From the NCBI RefSeq assembly GCF_013401435.1, contig NZ_JACBGN010000024.1, positions 1 to 46,480 of the forward strand: a stretch of DNA of 46,480 bases, written 5' to 3'. The translations under genes were made by a program, and so were the position numbers. Positions 36,759-46,410 of this stretch are shown here, piece by piece. This stretch comes from Streptomyces sp. BR123 (GTDB lineage: Bacteria > Actinomycetota > Actinomycetes > Streptomycetales > Streptomycetaceae). The notes under the pieces are model-generated. The model saw nothing but the letters and a program-made list of their open reading frames with translations. It was not told the origin of the DNA and did not search any database. Every line of letters starts with the position of its first letter. Positions within the stretch are counted from its first letter, which is position 1.

Positions 36759-37361
36759 CTATTCGGCGCGGTGGGCTTTGTGCGGGGCTACCTGCAGTTG
36801 CGCCCATGCCGGGAGTCGGGTCCGGCCCGTCGACTGACGGGCGCGTTCCAGCGGACCGTCGCACAGCCCTTCCAGGACGGGGCCGGGCTCGCCGTCGGGA
36901 TCGAGGGTGAGATGGAGGTGTGCCACCGGGTGCCCGGGGGAGCCGTCCATCCGTGCCCGGGCTCGTCGGACTCCGGGCTGTTGCCGGGCGTCGGCGGCCA
37001 GGACGTCTCCGAGGGCGCTCTCGCGCAGTTCCACACTCGCCAGGTCGGGTGGTCCTCCGAGCGGTATGCGGCCGGGGTGACGGCGGCGGAGCTGTGTCAG
37101 CAGCCACCACAGGGCGAGGAGGAGGACGATGGCGAGAGCGGCAATGACCGCAGGCCACCACCATCCTTCTCCGGTCCAGCGCGTGCGGTCGGCGTCGCGG
37201 AGGAGGACGTCGCGGGGAGTGGTCGGCCAGCCCTCTGCTGCTGTCAGGTGCCAGCGCCGGTACAGGTCGAAACCGCCGGCGAGGATCAGGAGGCCTGCTC
37301 CGAGCAGAACCGCTCCCGTCAGGGCGAGCAGGACCCGGTTGACTGCGGATTTCCTCTTCAT
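36759..37361 (-). CDS. amaP: alkaline-shock response membrane anchor protein AmaP
   Basis: A 200-aa protein with two membrane helices (LLALTGAVLLGAGLLILAGG near residue 12 and WWWPAVIAALAIVLLLALWW near residue 68) and a cytoplasmic C-terminal domain of about 100 residues resembling the Asp23 fold (DLASVELRESALGDVLAADA, RARMDGSPGHPVAHLHLTLD). AmaP tethers Asp23 to the membrane in Firmicutes. The ATG at 37361 (MKRKSAVNRVLL) with AGGA upstream is preferred to one 8 codons earlier. It is the last gene of the minus-strand Asp23 operon. Confidence 0.85.
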   Translation of the reverse strand: MKRKSAVNRVLLALTGAVLLGAGLLILAGGFDLYRRWHLTAAEGWPTTPRDVLLRDADRTRWTGEGWWWPAVIAALAIVLLLALWWLLTQLRRRHPGRIPLGGPPDLASVELRESALGDVLAADARQQPGVRRARARMDGSPGHPVAHLHLTLDPDGEPGPVLEGLCDGPLERARQSTGRTRLPAWAQLQVAPHKAHRAE

Positions 37362-37409
37362 GGGATCCGTTTCCTGTCTCTGCATGCCCGGCGAGGGCCC
37401 GCAGACGAG

Positions 37410-38072
37410 TCACTTCCGGCGTGCTCGGACGCGAACGGCAAGCGAAGGCCGGTGGGCGAGGGTGAGCCGGTCGAGTTCTTGCCCCAGCGCGGCCAAGAGG
37501 TCGGCTCTGACTCCGGAGGGGTCACGGAAGCGCACGTTCGCGCGTGCGCCGACGCGGTGCCGGCCCATCCGGATCCTGACGCCGCTGACGCCGGGGACCC
37601 GCATGGCGGCGTCCCTCAGAAGCAGAACCGCTGACTGGCGATCCAGCACGGCCCCCATCTGTGCGTCGGGAGTTCTGAGGGGCGTCCGGTGACGCAGGCC
37701 CGGCGTTGCCGCCAAGACGATCAGCCAGAGGCCGAGGACGGCGATGGCGGCGGCGCCGATCCGTATCCACGGGTCATCCAGCGGCCGGGTCGCCAGTTCG
37801 TCGGCGAGGCGGCTGCGCCAAGCGGCGGCGGGCAAACCGGCCCGGACCCTTGCGACGTCGTACAGGAGGATCCCGGAAGCGGCCCCGATGACCAGGGCCG
37901 TCAGCGCGGCAGGGATCCGTCGTGCAGACCATGGTCGACGCGTGAGGTGCGTGCCACGGGGGTGCGGCCCGCCCGAAGGCTGCTTCGTTACCTGTCCCAC
38001 CGTGCGGGAAGTGACCTCGTCGGACCGGGGCGGCTGCTCCATATCGGCCGGGGGGGCTTGGTCACGCCTCAT
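37410..38072 (-). CDS. DUF6286-type membrane protein of the Asp23 operon
   Basis: A 220-aa protein. About 50 polar N-terminal residues precede two membrane helices (RIPAALTALVIGAASGILLY near residue 52 and WIRIGAAAIAVLGLWLIVLA near residue 103) and a C-terminal domain (DRQSAVLLLRDAAMRVPGVS, RIRMGRHRVGARANVRFRDP). This is the pattern of DUF6286 proteins that accompany Asp23 and AmaP genes in Streptomyces. The ATG has AAAGGAGAG upstream. AmaP-like topology suggests another membrane partner of Asp23. Function is otherwise unknown. Confidence 0.8.
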   Translation of the reverse strand: MRRDQAPPADMEQPPRSDEVTSRTVGQVTKQPSGGPHPRGTHLTRRPWSARRIPAALTALVIGAASGILLYDVARVRAGLPAAAWRSRLADELATRPLDDPWIRIGAAAIAVLGLWLIVLAATPGLRHRTPLRTPDAQMGAVLDRQSAVLLLRDAAMRVPGVSGVRIRMGRHRVGARANVRFRDPSGVRADLLAALGQELDRLTLAHRPSLAVRVRARRK

Positions 38073-38108: not shown

Positions 38109-38522
38109 TCAGTGCACACGTCGGTGCTCCAGCCCCTCGGAGAGGACCAGGTGCTCAATGGCGAGAGTGACCTCGGTGATGCGCATTCCGGTCAGTTGGG
38201 CCACTCGCTCGCCGACGTGGTTCTGCACGGCGCGGGAGGCATCGGCGAGGTTCGTCGGGTAGGGCAGGTCCAGGGTCAGGCCCAGCCGCGCCGTGCCGCC
38301 GCCGACCGTGGCCGAGGCGTGCGGAGGGGCGAGCTCTGCGTGGAGAGGTGAGGTGGCGGCGTGTTCGGCCAGAGCCTCCTGTGCGGCACGGACCGCGATG
38401 CGTGCCACCACCTTTTCGGGTATCACCGTGGCACCGCGTTCGGCCGCCGGTACGACCGGCGGGGTCGGCGGGGTCGGGGGTGCTGCTCCCGCAGGCGGAG
38501 CAGCGGCAGGCCGGGAGGTCAC
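38109..38522 (-). CDS. Asp23/Gls24 family envelope-stress protein (second copy)
   Basis: A 137-aa Asp23-domain protein. After a 25-residue Pro/Ala leader the domain runs GATVIPEKVVARIAVRAAQE, then TARLGLTLDLPYPTNLADAS and RAVQNHVGERVAQLTGMRIT with EVTLAIEHL. Asp23 proteins form a cytoplasmic layer at the membrane and respond to envelope or alkaline stress. The GTG start overlaps the stop of the preceding small membrane-protein gene as GTGA. The copy differs clearly from the Asp23 two genes upstream, so they probably form distinct subunits. Confidence 0.85.
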   Translation of the reverse strand: MTSRPAAAPPAGAAPPTPPTPPVVPAAERGATVIPEKVVARIAVRAAQEALAEHAATSPLHAELAPPHASATVGGGTARLGLTLDLPYPTNLADASRAVQNHVGERVAQLTGMRITEVTLAIEHLVLSEGLEHRRVH

Positions 38523-38698
38523 CGCCGGTCCCGGGAACCCGCAAAGTCGGACATCTTCAGGTCGCCCTGGAGCATGCGGCCGGCCACGAGGCCCGCGAGG
38601 CCCAAGAACATCACGAGCAGGAACGCCCAGAACCCGCCGAAGAATGCTGCGAAGCCCAGGGCCATGCCGGCAAGCAGGCCTGCGGTTGCTGCGCTCAT
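38519..38698 (-). CDS. small membrane protein (DUF2273-like)
   Basis: A 59-aa protein with one long hydrophobic hairpin (TAGLLAGMALGFAAFFGGFW, then AFLLVMFLGLAGLVAGRMLQ) and a short polar tail (GDLKMSDFAGSRDRR). Size and position between two Asp23 genes match the DUF2273 proteins of Asp23 operons. The ATG at 38698 has GGTGAG upstream. A GTG at 38764, overlapping the previous stop as GTGA, would add 22 residues and give translational coupling; I cannot decide between them. Confidence 0.8.
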   Translation of the reverse strand: MSAATAGLLAGMALGFAAFFGGFWAFLLVMFLGLAGLVAGRMLQGDLKMSDFAGSRDRR

Positions 38699-38760
38699 CT
38701 CACTCACCTGTTTTTCACGTAGATCGCTGCTCGCCCGGGCGGTGCCGGGCAGGTTGCGGA

Positions 38761-39237
38761 TCACTGCACGCGGCCCTCGCCCTCCTCTTCCTCTTCATCG
38801 GGAAGGTGGACGTCGCCGACGGCGATGTTCACTTCGACGACCTCCAGTCCGGTCATGCGCTCCACAGCCGTGATGACGCTGGTTCGGGTGTCGGCGGCGA
38901 TGTCCACGATGGAAACGCCGTACTCGACGATCACGTCGAGATCAATGGCGGCTTGCCGTTCGCCCACCTCGACCTTCACACCGCGACTCACGCTGGGACG
39001 GCCGCCGGGGACCTTGTCCGTCACCGCACCGAGCGTGCGGGCCATACCGGAGCCGAGGCTGTAGATGCCCGGAACCTCGCGGGTGGCCATTCCTGCGATC
39101 TTCTCGACCACGCTGTCGGAAATGGTCGTCCGACCCCGGGTCTCGGGCGGCGTCCCCGCGTTGGTGCGGCTCTCGGGAGCCGTCCCCTCGGGGCGCGGCT
39201 CACTCCCCTCCCCGGTGGGGTTGATCGTGTCCGACAT
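38761..39237 (-). CDS. Asp23/Gls24 family envelope-stress protein (first copy)
   Basis: A 158-aa classical Asp23 protein. A disordered leader of about 35 residues precedes RTTISDSVVEKIAGMATREV, PGIYSLGSGMARTLGAV, SRGVKVEVGERQAAIDLDVI and VEYGVSIVDIAADTRTSVIT, ending in an acidic EEEEEEG tail. This is the canonical Streptomyces Asp23, first gene of a five-gene minus-strand operon. GGAGG precedes the ATG. It is divergent from the ECF sigma gene across 142 bp, so the sigma factor probably controls this operon. Confidence 0.93.
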   Translation of the reverse strand: MSDTINPTGEGSEPRPEGTAPESRTNAGTPPETRGRTTISDSVVEKIAGMATREVPGIYSLGSGMARTLGAVTDKVPGGRPSVSRGVKVEVGERQAAIDLDVIVEYGVSIVDIAADTRTSVITAVERMTGLEVVEVNIAVGDVHLPDEEEEEGEGRVQ

Positions 39238-39289: not shown

Positions 39290-39317
39290 TTAGACACACC
39301 CGCAGGGCATTCGTCAC
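39290..39317 (-). promoter_or_regulatory. candidate ECF-type promoter for the Asp23 operon
   Basis: On the minus strand GTGACG (39317-39312) is followed after 16 nt by GTCTAA (39295-39290), about 53 bp before the Asp23 start. The -35-like GTGAC element and spacing resemble ECF promoters. The divergent ECF gene makes it a plausible target. No matching element was found for the sigma gene itself. Confidence 0.3.
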
Positions 39318-39379: not shown

Positions 39380-40048
39380 ATGTCAGCAGAAAGCGAGCGG
39401 CGGATGCGCAACCGGACCGAGTCCCCGCCCCCGCACGGTGCCGGCCTCCCGCTGCGGCCGGAACAGCGGCCGCCCGTCCACGCCGAAACGAGCGGTGGCA
39501 CGCCCGCTGACCTGGACGACGGCGTGCTGGCCGTGCGGGCTGCCGAAGGGGACGAAGACGCCTTTGCCGTCCTGGTCCGCCGGCACAGCAGTCGCCTGAT
39601 CGCCTTGGCCCTGCATCTGCTCGGCAACCGGGCGGATGCCGAGGATGCCGTTCAGGACGCTTTCCTCAGCGCCTGGCGGCGGCTGCCGGAATTCCGTCAC
39701 GGCGCCTCATTCGGCACGTGGATGTACCGCATCGTCACGAACCGTTGCCTCAACACCATGCGTCGTCGGCCTCGGCCTCTGCCCTTGGACAGCGTCCCCG
39801 AACCCGCCGCCGCGGACGCGCACAGCTCACCGCCCCGCGTGGCCGAGTCGGACGCGGCGGCAGCCGCCCTGGAGCGAGCACTCCGAGAACTCCAGCCCGA
39901 TCTGCGCGCGTGCTGGGTCCTGCGGGAGCTGCACGGCCTGCATTACGACGAGATCGCCCATGTGGTGGGCGGCAGCGAACAAGCGGTACGAGGCAGACTC
40001 TTTCGCGCACGACGCGCTCTGATGGAGGCGATGCGCCCATGGCGCTAG
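39380..40048 (+). CDS. ECF RNA polymerase sigma factor
   Basis: A 222-aa ECF sigma factor. Sigma-2 lies at residues 55-130 (DEDAFAVLVRRHSSRLIALA, GNRADAEDAVQDAFLSAWRR, GTWMYRIVTNRCLN) and sigma-4 at 160-220 (LQPDLRACWVLRELHGLHYD, EQAVRGRLFRARRAL). ATG at 39380; the ATG at 39404 has a somewhat better upstream GAGCGGCGG and is possible. The 3' end overlaps the next gene, an HxxxCxxC/Asp23 protein, by 10 bp, as sigma/anti-sigma pairs usually do. It is divergent from the Asp23 operon. Confidence 0.93.
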   Translation: MSAESERRMRNRTESPPPHGAGLPLRPEQRPPVHAETSGGTPADLDDGVLAVRAAEGDEDAFAVLVRRHSSRLIALALHLLGNRADAEDAVQDAFLSAWRRLPEFRHGASFGTWMYRIVTNRCLNTMRRRPRPLPLDSVPEPAAADAHSSPPRVAESDAAAAALERALRELQPDLRACWVLRELHGLHYDEIAHVVGGSEQAVRGRLFRARRALMEAMRPWR

Positions 40049-40719
40049 ACGATCCGCACCGCACCTCCGGCAATGGTCCTGAGACCGTGGTGGGCACGCA
40101 GGCCGAATCGTTCCCGCGCTCCGACGCAGAGATGCTCGCCGGCGCGGAGCTGCTGCCCTGCGGACGCCCCCTCGGCCGGGCCTGGGAGCACGCCCGCGAC
40201 CCGGTCGGCGCGGCCGACCCGCACACCGCCCACTGCCCCTACTGCCGTGAAGCCGTCGAGGGGCTGGCAGTCCTGGACCGGGCCACCCGCGCTCTGCGCG
40301 CCGAGGAGGAACCGGACAGTCGAAGAGTCGTCAACCGGGTCATCGACGCCGTCCGGGCGGAGGTGCGACTCGGCGCCATGCTGCTGCTGGACGACCCCGG
40401 CCAGGACCTTCGCATCGCCGAGAGCGCCGCCGCGAAAGTGCTGCGCCGGGCCGCGGACAGCGTCCCGGGCACGCGCGCTGCCAGCTGCCGCCTCATCCCC
40501 GCCCGGGAGGGCCGTGCCGTCCACGTCGTTGCCATCACGATCGCAGCAGCGCTCGACCAACCGCTGCCGGAGCGGGCCGAAGAAGTACGCCGAGCCGTCC
40601 TCGACGCGGCCGAACACGTCCTCGGCCTCGCCGTCACAGCCGTCGATCTCGAGATCAACGGCGTGCTGGAGCTCGCCCACGTGCCGAGCAGTCGGCGGTT
40701 CGAGCTGAGCGAACGATGA
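40039..40719 (+). CDS. putative zinc anti-sigma factor fused to an Asp23-like domain
   Basis: A 226-aa protein. The N-terminal 75 residues hold LPCGRPLGRAWEHARD and PHTAHCPYC, in which H62, C66 and C69 form the HxxxCxxC signature of zinc-binding anti-sigma (ZAS) domains. Residues 80-110 are a helical linker. Residues 115-220 are Asp23-like (DLRIAESAAAKVLRRAADSV, HVVAITIAAALDQPLPERAE, EHVLGLAVTAVDLEINGVLE). There is no membrane helix, unlike most ZAS proteins. The gene overlaps the ECF sigma gene by 10 bp and the next Asp23-like gene by 4 bp. I infer that it binds the sigma factor and couples its release to the Asp23 layer. Motif and context are visible; the activity is inferred. Confidence 0.75.
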   Translation: MALDDPHRTSGNGPETVVGTQAESFPRSDAEMLAGAELLPCGRPLGRAWEHARDPVGAADPHTAHCPYCREAVEGLAVLDRATRALRAEEEPDSRRVVNRVIDAVRAEVRLGAMLLLDDPGQDLRIAESAAAKVLRRAADSVPGTRAASCRLIPAREGRAVHVVAITIAAALDQPLPERAEEVRRAVLDAAEHVLGLAVTAVDLEINGVLELAHVPSSRRFELSER

Positions 40720-41081
40720 CCGCAGCCGCACTCAGGCACATCCAGGGGGCCGCAGCCGAGGCGGCCCTCGCCGTTCCCGGTGTGGCCGCACTCCAGCCGT
40801 CGCTCGCCGCCCGGCTGGCCCGTGCGGCCTCCCGCGTCCGGCAGCTTGCGCAAGCCGAGGGAACGCCCGGACAGCCCGAGGCGGCCGGTATCCGCTGCGG
40901 CCACACGCCGGAAGGGGGCTGGCAGGTGGAGGTGCGCTGCATCCTGCGCGCCGACCACCGTGTGGTCGATGTCGCCCGGCATGTCCGCGAAGACGTGCGA
41001 GCCGCCGTCACCGCGTGCCTCGATCCGGACGACACGACCGGAGCCGTGACTGTCCTGGTCACGGTCACCCACACCCTGTGA
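40716..41081 (+). CDS. short Asp23-like protein downstream of the anti-sigma fusion
   Basis: A 121-aa protein. Its N-terminal helices (HIQGAAAEAALAVPGVAALQ) and C-terminal strand-helix pattern (WQVEVRCILRADHRVVDVAR, HVREDVRAAVTACLDPDD, VTVLVTVTHTL) follow the Asp23 fold, with weak sequence similarity. ATGA overlap with the upstream gene shows translational coupling. It would be a third Asp23-type subunit under the same sigma unit. The family call is moderately sure; function unknown. Confidence 0.65.
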   Translation: MTAAALRHIQGAAAEAALAVPGVAALQPSLAARLARAASRVRQLAQAEGTPGQPEAAGIRCGHTPEGGWQVEVRCILRADHRVVDVARHVREDVRAAVTACLDPDDTTGAVTVLVTVTHTL

Positions 41082-42479: not shown

Positions 42480-42758
42480 TCAGACGTGCCGATGGCTCTG
42501 GCGGTTGCCGGTCACCGCACGGTAGAGGGCGAGGAGGATGACGGACCCGATGATCGCGGCGATCCAGGTGGACAGCTCGAAGAAACCGTCGATGGATTCC
42601 ACGCCGAGGATCACCTTGCCCAGCCAGCCCCCGAGGAGACCACCGGCGATACCTATGACCATGGTGACGACGACTCCCCCGGGATCCCTGCCCGGCATGA
42701 GGGACTTGGCGATGGCGCCGGCGATGAGCCCGATGAGGATCCAAGCGATGAGTCCCAT
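42480..42758 (-). CDS. GlsB/YeaQ/YmgE family stress-response membrane protein
   Basis: A 92-aa protein with three glycine-rich membrane helices: MGLIAWILIGLIAGAIAK, GGVVVTMVIGIAGGLLGGWL and TWIAAIIGSVILLALYRAV. The PGRDPGG loop after the first helix is the family signature. Members are general-stress membrane proteins of unknown mechanism and often accompany Asp23 (Gls24) genes, as here. The ATG at 42758 has AAAGGG upstream; an in-frame start 17 codons earlier lacks one. Confidence 0.93.
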   Translation of the reverse strand: MGLIAWILIGLIAGAIAKSLMPGRDPGGVVVTMVIGIAGGLLGGWLGKVILGVESIDGFFELSTWIAAIIGSVILLALYRAVTGNRQSHRHV

Positions 42759-43449
42759 GATGCGATTGCCCTTTCTCGATGTCACAGCTTTCCTGTCCCG
42801 TATGTGCAACGGAACTCACTTCAAACGTCCGAGTGCGTCCCCCTGTACCGGCCGGCGTTGCTCGAAGGTGCCGCGGGGCGGGGGCGCCGGCCGGTGAGGC
42901 CGGTGCGTCGACCGGTGACGGCAGCCGGGCGCCGGTGCCCTCGCAGGAGGCGCGGTGCGGTGTGCCGGCGGATACGGAACCGGTGGTCATAGGCCGCCCG
43001 GCGCAGGGGCCGTCACCCGTACTCTCCGGACCTGCGCGCATCCGTCGCCGGTCGTAGGCGTCGGGGGGCCGGGTGCCGCGCGCAGGAGCCGGGGCGGCCC
43101 TGCCGGGCATGCTCCGCCACGCGTGATCGGCAGCCGTCCCGGCGAGGGCCGGCAGTCGGAGGCTCGCTTCCATGTCCCGTGTGGCCGCCGACATCGACGT
43201 ACGGCCCACCGCCACAGGCCGTACAGCCGTGTCCCTCCATGCCCCGCCGGCCTACACCTCCACCGCCCCCTCGGCGTGACGAGAGGAGTTCTGCCGCGAC
43301 ACGCTGAGGCCAGGCGTGCCGGCTTTCCGACTGCCAGGCGCCGGCCGACGGACCACACCGGCCGTCGGGCAGGGTGCGTGCAGCCGCGGTAGGGCAACTC
43401 CCCTGTGCGGACGGCCCCCACGCCACCCGGAGGGGGTAACGGTGGTCGG
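42759..43449. other. 691-bp gap without a supported gene
   Basis: No frame gives a recognisable protein. A 35-codon frame at 43172 (ATG, GGAGG upstream, beginning MSRVAADIDVRPTATGRTAV) is the only one with a fair start signal and is noted without being called. The promoter of the GlsB gene must lie at the left end of this gap. Confidence 0.45.
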
Positions 43450-44302: not shown

Positions 44303-44506
44303 TCAGGGCTTCTGGCGGCGGCCGCGCAGGGAGTCGTTCACTCCGCGGGCCTGCTCCTCGGCCTTGGCCGCCGTCTCCCGCGCCTTTCCTTTGATCTGGT
44401 CCATCTCGCCTTCGGCTTCCATCCGCTCGCTGCCGGTCACCTTGCCGGCTGCTTCCTTGGCCTTGCCCTTGGCCTGCTCCATCTTGCCCTTGGCCTTCTC
44501 AGCCAT
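44303..44506 (-). CDS. CsbD family stress protein
   Basis: A 67-aa hydrophilic protein rich in K, E, A and G: EKAKGKMEQAKGKAKEAAGK, VTGSERMEAEGEMDQIKGKA. This is the CsbD pattern (general stress response, SigB-controlled in Bacillus). AAAGGAG lies just before the ATG at 44506. A strong terminator follows. Function in the cell is unknown beyond stress induction. Confidence 0.95.
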   Translation of the reverse strand: MAEKAKGKMEQAKGKAKEAAGKVTGSERMEAEGEMDQIKGKARETAAKAEEQARGVNDSLRGRRQKP

Positions 44507-44664
44507 GAAGAGTCTCCTTTTCGAGGAATGCACTTATCGCCACAAACTATGTGAGTTCCGGAGGTTTCGCGCGTTGAAGCGGACACCCTCGCACGGGGAA
44601 GGGTGCGTGCCGGCGCGGGCTTGTCCACGGCGCCGGCCGGCCTTCGGGGGCGTCGTCCCGGATT

Positions 44665-44760
44665 GCCGGGCGGGGTCAGCGTGAAGGGGTTCTTGCGGCC
44701 GTAGCGGTCCGTCAGTCGGCCGAAGAACAGCGCCCCGGAGCAGGCACCCGCCACGCGGAG
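44665..44760 (-). pseudogene. fragment of a major facilitator superfamily transporter
   Basis: About 30 residues (RVAGACSGALFFGRLTDRYG, RKNPFTLT) match the conserved loop between helices 2 and 3 of metabolite:H+ symporters of the MFS, including the GxLxDRxGRK signature. No other part of such a protein is found on either side, so this is an isolated scrap. It overlaps the 3' end of the WhiB gene in another frame. Confidence 0.65.
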
Positions 44761-45050
44761 GGCGGAGCGGGCGAGGGGCCCACAAGCAGGACATGGCGCT
44801 CGTCTGCCGTCAGGCCGCCCCGCACGCCGTGGGGAATGCGGGCGGCAAGGGCGTGGCGGCGGCACGGGATACGGACCGGGCAGCTCCCACAGACGGCCTT
44901 GGCGGCCTCCTCTCGCGCCCGGGCGGCTGCCGCGGGCTCGTGCGCGACCCGGGCGAAGGCCGCGTCCGCGGTGCGGCACGCCCCGTCGAGCGGCCGGTCG
45001 CCGTGCCGGTCGAACGATCCGGACGTGGGCGAGGAGTCGATGTCGGCCAC
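44712..45050 (-). CDS. WhiB-family iron-sulphur transcription regulator
   Basis: A 112-aa WhiB-like protein. Four cluster cysteines are C25 (GACRTAD), C54, C57 (VCGSCPVR) and C63 (IPC). The following turn is HGVRGGLTADER, with R instead of the usual W in GVWGG. WhiB proteins bind a 4Fe-4S cluster and the primary sigma factor and sense NO or O2. The GTG start at 45050 has GGAAGGAG upstream. The last 20 or so residues (PSPAPPSAWRVPAPGRCSSA) are not WhiB-like: they are read, out of frame, from DNA that resembles an MFS transporter gene. The native end was apparently lost in a rearrangement. Confidence 0.85.
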   Translation of the reverse strand: MADIDSSPTSGSFDRHGDRPLDGACRTADAAFARVAHEPAAAARAREEAAKAVCGSCPVRIPCRRHALAARIPHGVRGGLTADERHVLLVGPSPAPPSAWRVPAPGRCSSAD

Positions 45051-45636
45051 GGTGGCGGCTCCTTCCGGTGGAGGGCGGCCGTCCTGACCGCCCGGTCTCG
45101 TCCGTATCACCCGAACTCCTGCATCCATGCCCGGCACCTGGGAAGCGGCATGATCCGGGGCTTCTCCCGCCCCTGACGGGCGGGGTAGCCTCCGGATCCG
45201 TACCGGGCCCGCGTCGTGACCGAGGCCGGCGCCTGGAGGCCGACTCCGCGCGGGACGCGCAGGGATGAAGCCGGCCACTGACCGGACGTCCGGCGCAGGC
45301 GGCGTTCGAGGGCCGGCGCGACACCGCACGATGAACTGCGGAACTGCCCCCGGAGAGCCGGTGCCGGGGCTGCCCGGGCGCCGAGGCGGAGCTGCGGCTG
45401 CCGCTCGGCGGACAGGCCGAGGCCGAGGGCGCTCCGGCACTCGCGGCGGCTCACGGCATCGAGGGCGCGACCGGCATGGGACACGTGCCCCGTCGGCGTG
45501 TTCGTACGAGGAGGAGAAGGGAGGAACGTGCAGGTCCGCACGCCTCGACGCACGCTGCCGCGCAGGGGGTGTGGCCGTAGGTGTGGCCGTACGGGAACTG
45601 CTTGCGTAAGGTCGAACGGCGCTCTCCGGAAGGACG
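45051..45636. other. 586-bp gap with a coding-like relic
   Basis: From about 45383 to 45480 the plus strand shows strong third-position G/C bias in one frame, reading EAELRLPLGGQAEAEGAPAL and then AAAHGIEGATGMGH. It has no start and stops making sense after that. I recognise no family. It could be the lost upstream portion of a neighbouring gene. Confidence 0.35.
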
Positions 45637-46337: not shown

Positions 46338-46410
46338 CTGTCCCTTATACACATGTCCGAGCGCACGAGACCGGTCCGTATCTCGTATGCCGTCTTCTTC
46401 TTGAAAAAAA
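46338..46410. other. Illumina Nextera adapter, index, P7 and poly-A (artefact)
   Basis: From 46338 the sequence follows the Nextera transposase adapter (starting CTGTCTCTTATACACAT, ending CACGAGAC at 46371) with three mismatches. An 8-nt index, CGGTCCGT (46372-46379), follows. Then comes the P7 sequence beginning ATCTCGTATGCCGTC (46380-46403, one mismatch) and seven A (46404-46410). This is library-construction DNA, not genomic. Confidence 0.98.

Follow-up and report, generated by a model that had tools for sequence, protein, structure and literature searches.

A ZAS-like module joined to an Asp23-like domain in a predicted soluble anti-sigma factor of Streptomyces

How might an extracytoplasmic function (ECF) sigma factor be kept under envelope control by a partner that has no membrane helix? 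The question is raised by a locus on contig NZ_JACBGN010000024.1 of Streptomyces sp. BR123 (positions 1 to 46,480, forward strand; this 46,480-nucleotide stretch is referred to below as the window), in which the gene for an ECF sigma factor overlaps that for a 226-amino acid protein. The latter combines a zinc anti-sigma (ZAS)-like module with an Asp23-like domain. We consider it probable, from sequence comparison and predicted models, that this protein is a soluble anti-sigma factor in which the module would grip the ECF sigma factor, with the Asp23-like domain tying that grip to the state of a layer formed by Asp23 and AmaP beneath the cell membrane. Asp23 proteins are widespread and poorly understood.

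The sigma factor gene and the two parts of its partner

The sigma factor and its partner proteins are encoded on the forward strand as follows.

39380..40048, + strand: ECF sigma factor with sigma-70 regions 2 and 4 (Pfam Sigma70_r2, E=2.4e-20; Sigma70_r4_2, E=1.8e-11)
40039..40719, + strand: predicted soluble anti-sigma factor of 226 amino acids, with a ZAS-like module and an Asp23-like domain
40135..40368, + strand: ZAS-like module, residues 33–110 of the 226-amino acid protein (AlphaFold2 models, hhalign, ligand counts)
40372..40674, + strand: Asp23-like domain, residues 112–212 of the 226-amino acid protein (AlphaFold2 model, hhalign)
40716..41081, + strand: 121-amino acid Asp23-like protein, ATGA-coupled to the gene for the 226-amino acid protein (Pfam Asp23, E=6.5e-4, 20.5 bits, below the cut-off)

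The gene layout described in the initial annotation is borne out. The coding sequences of the ECF sigma factor and the 226-amino acid protein (39380–40048 and 40039–40719) overlap within ATGGCGCTAG, and the coding sequence of the second Asp23-like protein (40716–41081) is coupled to the latter through ATGA. The start codon of the ECF gene, ATG at 39380, was read from the sequence, and further in-frame starts are possible. Hydropathy agrees with the claimed absence of a membrane helix from the 226-amino acid protein. Its best 19-residue mean is 1.49, as compared with 2.19–2.66 for the three membrane proteins that the cluster encodes, and the maximum across the entire family of this protein is 1.93.

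The HxxxCxxC motif noted earlier at H62, C66, and C69 is likewise encoded as described, with codons at 40222, 40234, and 40243. A candidate fourth zinc ligand, Cys41 (codon at 40159), lies upstream of these three residues and had been overlooked. Cys41, His62, Cys66, and Cys69 occur together in 118 of 122 aligned homologs, a count that describes close relatives because these are the best 122 of ~350 homologs. The homologs were counted without prior selection by motif. Helices are predicted in the module by AlphaFold2 models at residues 45–53, 61–65, 67–87, and 94–109.

Profile comparison was carried out with hhalign against 31 ZAS proteins that had been found independently with zf-HC2; L008 was left out of this set. 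The module scored 29.1, versus at most 17.3 for 100 column shuffles. The score was 32.2 against the 22 non-RsrA ZAS proteins and 15.0 against the RsrA subset alone. Together with the Hx3Cx2C motif, these scores support the ZAS-type N-terminal module that had been proposed. The module profile also recovers membrane ZAS anti-sigma factors elsewhere in the phylum; the two that were checked both score above the zf-HC2 and RskA_C cut-offs, and both are located beside an ECF gene. No curated anti-sigma family (Pfam zf-HC2, NCBIfam anti-sigma) was matched by the 226-amino acid protein itself. When 31 module rows were compared with the curated models, one matched zf-HC2 (E=0.079) and two matched NF052375 (best E=2.4e-4). 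Judged by motif and profile, the N-terminal half of the protein is a class I ZAS-like module, labeled “like” because the 226-amino acid protein does not reach the curated cut-offs.

The C-terminal half is treated in the same manner. Pfam Asp23 matches the 226-amino acid protein weakly (E=0.0074, 17.1 bits versus a gathering cut-off of 28), and for this reason the domain is called Asp23-like. Alignment of the family profile with classical Asp23 by hhalign gave a score of 37.0, as compared with 16.75 for the best of 60 column shuffles, and the AlphaFold2 model has a predicted fold order of β-α-β-β-α-β. Both results support the Asp23-like C-terminus assigned in the initial annotation.

Co-occurrence of the module with an ECF gene

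A search of 150 Streptomyces genomes with the family profile yielded 94 matches in 79 genomes, of which all except the window's own (93) were analyzed. Among the module-bearing Asp23-like proteins, 45 of 45 have an ECF gene upstream on the same strand at a distance of at most 126 bp. None of the 48 module-free Asp23-like proteins has an ECF gene inside 500 bp; the nearest one to the module-free protein of L254 is 1,362 bp off and on the opposite strand. Two loci counted as module-free, L222 and L223, are contig-end fragments, and excluding both gives 0 of 46. In a quick tree built from few columns, from which L214, L216, and L220 were left out as too short, L222 and L223 fall together within a module-bearing group. 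The module label switches twice on this tree, between the two classes and at the L222 and L223 fragments, and so the counts of 45/45 and 0/48 stand for non-independent events.

Both classes belong to Asp23 clusters, since a classical asp23 gene is present in 38 of the 45 module-bearing loci and 46 of the 48 module-free loci. Module-free proteins with a short upstream frame start at roughly the point where the last helix of the module would lie, and some module-free proteins have longer upstream open frames that contain no module. The module-free Asp23-like gene is found in many Streptomyces (L224–L269), where it is mostly divergent from asp23. At L074 and L075, the module-free frame runs on into a stretch that by eye resembles the 121-amino acid partner.

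A search of 394 genomes of the class with the module profile gave 35 matches in 34 genomes and eight family codes, and all 35 have a same-strand ECF gene no more than 402 bp away. In 34 of the 35, an Asp23 or Asp23-like domain occurs in the frame of the module (at E values of up to 0.05). L298 is the one without and appears to be a broken copy: its first cysteine is replaced, and its frame stops before the Asp23-like domain, with the ECF gene retained. Four matches (L302, L303, L304, and L307) have kept the three cysteines but not the zinc-motif histidine.

A different fusion occurs at L106, in another class, where the domain fused to the module is of the classical Asp23 kind (Pfam E=8.2e-17, 62 bits) and the fusion lies beside an ECF gene. 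This domain passes the Pfam gathering cut-off, unlike that of the 226-amino acid protein of the window, and clusters with classical Asp23 apart from the line of the window (Shimodaira–Hasegawa-like approximate likelihood ratio test, SH-aLRT, 99), a grouping that comprises no more than three rows and has long branches and few columns. The design of L106 is shared by P0173 and P0198, and a module match was found in 4 of 66 genomes of its class. In evolution, ZAS modules have apparently been joined to Asp23 domains on two or more occasions, with the Asp23-like line in one case and a classical Asp23 in another. At L105 and at L104, a locus identical to L076, proteins of ~111–115 amino acids have the module directly downstream of an ECF gene and no recognizable Asp23 domain.

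These distributions bear on whether the 226-amino acid protein is an anti-sigma factor at all. It could instead be a protein of the Asp23 layer that carries a zinc knuckle and is co-transcribed with the ECF gene for some other reason, an explanation that the lack of a match to any curated anti-sigma model would favor. We regard it as very improbable. The module pairs strictly with an ECF gene (45/45 in Streptomyces and 35/35 in the class) and no ECF gene is close to the module-free relatives, the profile connects the module to ZAS anti-sigma factors, and L104 and L105 place the module beside an ECF gene even where an Asp23 domain is not recognizable.

Predicted promoter of the divergent Asp23 operon

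An operon that begins with a classical asp23 gene diverges from the ECF gene, and a candidate promoter lies in the region between the two.

38761..39237, − strand: classical Asp23, first gene of the divergent operon (Pfam Asp23, E=2.7e-30; ATG at 39237, GGAGG upstream)
38519..38764, − strand: DUF2273-like small membrane protein (Pfam E=1.8e-4, 21.9 bits versus a cut-off of 25.4, below)
38109..38522, − strand: second Asp23-like protein of the operon (Pfam Asp23, E=2.4e-5, 25.1 bits versus a cut-off of 28, below)
37410..38072, − strand: DUF6286 membrane protein (Pfam E=1.4e-27)
36759..37385, − strand: AmaP-like membrane anchor (NCBIfam anchor_AmaP, E=5.3e-12, 45.8 bits versus a cut-off of 55, below)
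39312..39317, − strand: predicted −35 element (GTGACG) in the promoter of the asp23 operon
39290..39297, − strand: predicted −10 element GTGTCTAA, 14 bases past the −35 element, with the asp23 ATG following after a further 52 bases

The neighborhood was compared across 49 related loci from named genomes, among the matches listed. In 44 of these, the genes for the ECF sigma factor, the 226-amino acid protein, Asp23, the second Asp23-like protein, DUF6286, and AmaP have the same strand arrangement, which exceeds what chance would give. The ECF gene is on the strand of the gene for the 226-amino acid protein, with asp23 on the opposite strand, in 47; L065 and L066, the other two, are fragments from the ends of contigs. 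A match to the 121-amino acid protein is present in 42 of the loci and DUF2273 in 45.

Classical GGAAC-type ECF promoters showed no excess over shuffles between asp23 and the ECF gene, and alignment was used instead. A bipartite motif was found by aligning 51 asp23–ECF intergenic regions; L072 and L073, which have no shared intergenic region, were left out. The motif occurs in its exact form in 42 of the 51 regions and in a slightly looser form in 46. In the asp23 direction, the motif reads GTGASG-N14/15-RTGTCYAA. GTGAS and TGTC are separated by 16–17 bases, a spacing similar to that of ECF promoters such as those of ECF41 (16 ± 1; PMC3426412). The strict motif has a single site in the 8.2 Mb genome of strain BR123, at 39290–39317, and its backwards control has 0. 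The looser motif is found in 55 of the 150 Streptomyces genomes and its backwards control in 33, and thus lone matches to the looser form are often due to chance.

A matrix score of at least 18 is reached at 34 of the 45 module loci, versus 0 of the 48 module-free loci (highest score, 12.5). The matrix was trained on the 51 regions, with which 12 of the 45 module loci have a 40-base stretch in common; among the other 33, the score is reached at 22. The 11 module loci that score below 18 include L200, L203, L208, L212, and L214 with a diverged GTAACG...GTGTC form, L191, L194, and L218 with a partial motif, and L190, L198, and L210, in which nothing similar was seen. Among distant members of the class, 2 of the 28 regions upstream contain the motif (the null has a mean of 0.44 and a maximum of 4), and we therefore claim it for Streptomyces and near kin only.

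The strain has a second cluster of Asp23, DUF2273, Asp23-like, DUF6286, and AmaP-like genes on another contig (C8; L007, 1708–4077). The 9 kb fetched around this cluster contain no match to an ECF sigma factor or to the module, and no site for the promoter motif (best score, 5.9).

The direction of the motif was inferred mainly from L072 and L073, at which the ECF gene and asp23 are not divergent neighbors. Only the GTGASG-to-TGTCC reading is directed at both genes in these two loci, 12–51 bases before a start codon; the L072 site that precedes asp23 scores weakly (11.2). The opposite reading, with TTGGACA as the −35 element, is directed at neither gene there and was judged less likely. Distance alone leaves the direction undecided. 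In the chosen reading, the nearest in-frame start is 6–83 bases away for ECF genes (15 sites) and 21–67 bases away for asp23 in 22 of 25 sites, with 160–177 bases in the other three. In the opposite reading, the distances are 5–150 bases for ECF genes (26 sites) and 14–511 bases for asp23 (13 sites). For the close relatives of the window, distance alone would also allow an ECF-directed promoter. L071 and L209 carry two copies of the motif, directed at the ECF gene and asp23, and the copy directed at the ECF gene suggests autoregulation in these loci. The window has one copy, directed at asp23.

Possible signals and known systems

What might the 226-amino acid protein respond to? In Staphylococcus aureus, Asp23 is reported to be held at the membrane through AmaP and to oligomerize, and loss of either Asp23 or AmaP to induce the cell wall stress response (PMC6954212). 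From these findings, we infer that the Asp23-like domain may read the state of the corresponding layer here. With the layer intact, the 226-amino acid protein would keep the sigma factor away from RNA polymerase, its module being predicted to hold the sigma factor in the manner of class I anti-sigma domains. Disturbance of the layer or the envelope, or scarcity of Asp23, would change this contact and release the sigma factor. The released sigma factor would then read the GTGACG-N14-GTGTCTAA promoter at 39317–39290, and use of this promoter would raise the output of the Asp23/DUF2273/DUF6286/AmaP operon. A further copy of the motif would, in some relatives, direct the sigma factor to its own gene.

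A more specific form of this mechanism, which we advance tentatively, is a self-measuring coat: the Asp23-like domain would co-assemble with the Asp23/AmaP layer, and damage to the layer or its loss would be perceived directly from the cytoplasmic side and would free the ECF sigma factor such that the layer is rebuilt. A report from Streptomyces venezuelae, in which an Asp23/Gls24 gene falls after ethanol shock (PMC9769785), sits somewhat uneasily with layer sensing. If layer sensing is correct, a soluble protein that lacks a membrane helix would perceive envelope stress by way of a self-assembling layer.

The main rival to layer sensing, itself unlikely in our estimation, is a redox switch at the zinc site. 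The 226-amino acid protein would then be a soluble anti-sigma factor of the RsrA type, which releases the sigma factor once the cysteines of the zinc site are oxidized; the Asp23-like domain would do no more than position the protein near the membrane or hold a dimer together. The zinc ligands of RsrA are three cysteines and one histidine. The candidate ligands of the module equal this set, and the C...HxxxCxxC order is also seen in RsrA orthologs of the genus. Cys150 is a further residue to consider, as it is nearly invariant (121 of the 122 aligned homologs, the best of ~350), and cytoplasmic zinc-containing class I anti-sigma factors are described as often linked to redox sensing (PMC7406223). 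Against a redox switch, the operon predicted as the target serves the envelope rather than thiol repair, and the histidine is missing from 4 of the 35 class members. Retention of an Asp23 or Asp23-like domain in 34 of the 35 class matches likewise goes beyond the needs of a mere tether.

The module might also sense nothing, being a zinc-stabilized anti-sigma domain on which the signal is imposed by another protein, such as the 121-amino acid partner, or by a protease acting on the complex. In favor of this, RsiW is reported to bind its sigma factor independently of zinc (PMC7406223), and a match to the 121-amino acid Asp23-like protein follows in 42 of the 49 listed loci. We nonetheless find this arrangement improbable, as family scans of the conserved cluster identified no protease, kinase, or anti-anti-sigma factor among its eight genes.

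The locus shares features with several known systems. Like RsrA, ChrR, and RslA, which are zinc anti-sigma factors of class I, the 226-amino acid protein has an Hx3Cx2C motif with an upstream cysteine and a gene directly downstream of the ECF gene, and its predicted helices may form a comparable bundle with a last helix. Unlike class I zinc anti-sigma factors, it has an Asp23-like domain in place of a membrane or RskA_C part and falls below the curated cut-offs. The spacing between C41 and H62 is 21, unlike in RsrA orthologs, where it is 26. Similarly to the staphylococcal Asp23/AmaP system, as described in PMC6954212, Asp23 and an AmaP-like anchor are encoded in one operon; the difference here is the attachment of an ECF sigma factor and a ZAS–Asp23 protein. 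ECF41 sigma factors are likewise described as having a bipartite promoter before the partner gene, with a spacer of 16 ± 1, and few targets per genome (PMC3426412). Unlike the sigma factor studied here, members of ECF41 have a fused C-terminal extension that controls them, and they use TGTCACA as the −35 element.

An Asp23 protein as a regulator of an ECF sigma factor is not new as an idea, because it has already been predicted (PMC8999054). ECF286 and ECF292, groups of the Casas-Pastor et al. 2021 classification, adjoin soluble proteins of the Asp23 family that are presented as predicted anti-sigma factors with no experimental data, and were set aside in that review for want of such data; its account of these two groups mentions neither a ZAS module nor a target promoter (PMC8999054). 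The view in the initial annotation that the locus embodies a new way of controlling an ECF sigma factor was to this extent anticipated. Among the titles and abstracts listed, subscription papers not included, a literature search returned no experimental study of such an ECF/Asp23 pair. As far as searched, the ZAS module, its co-occurrence with ECF genes, the apparently separate fusion to classical Asp23, and the predicted target promoter appear to be new. The ECF/Asp23 pair thereby gains a concrete architecture, a predicted promoter and target operon, module-free relatives that serve as natural controls, and residues that can be mutated.

Other genes nearby on the − strand encode a transglycosylase-associated small membrane protein (42480–42809), a CsbD-like protein (44303–44533), and a WhiB-like protein (44712–45296). 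At the contig end, positions 46338–46410 resemble an Illumina Nextera adapter, and the last bases therefore look like read-through rather than genome.
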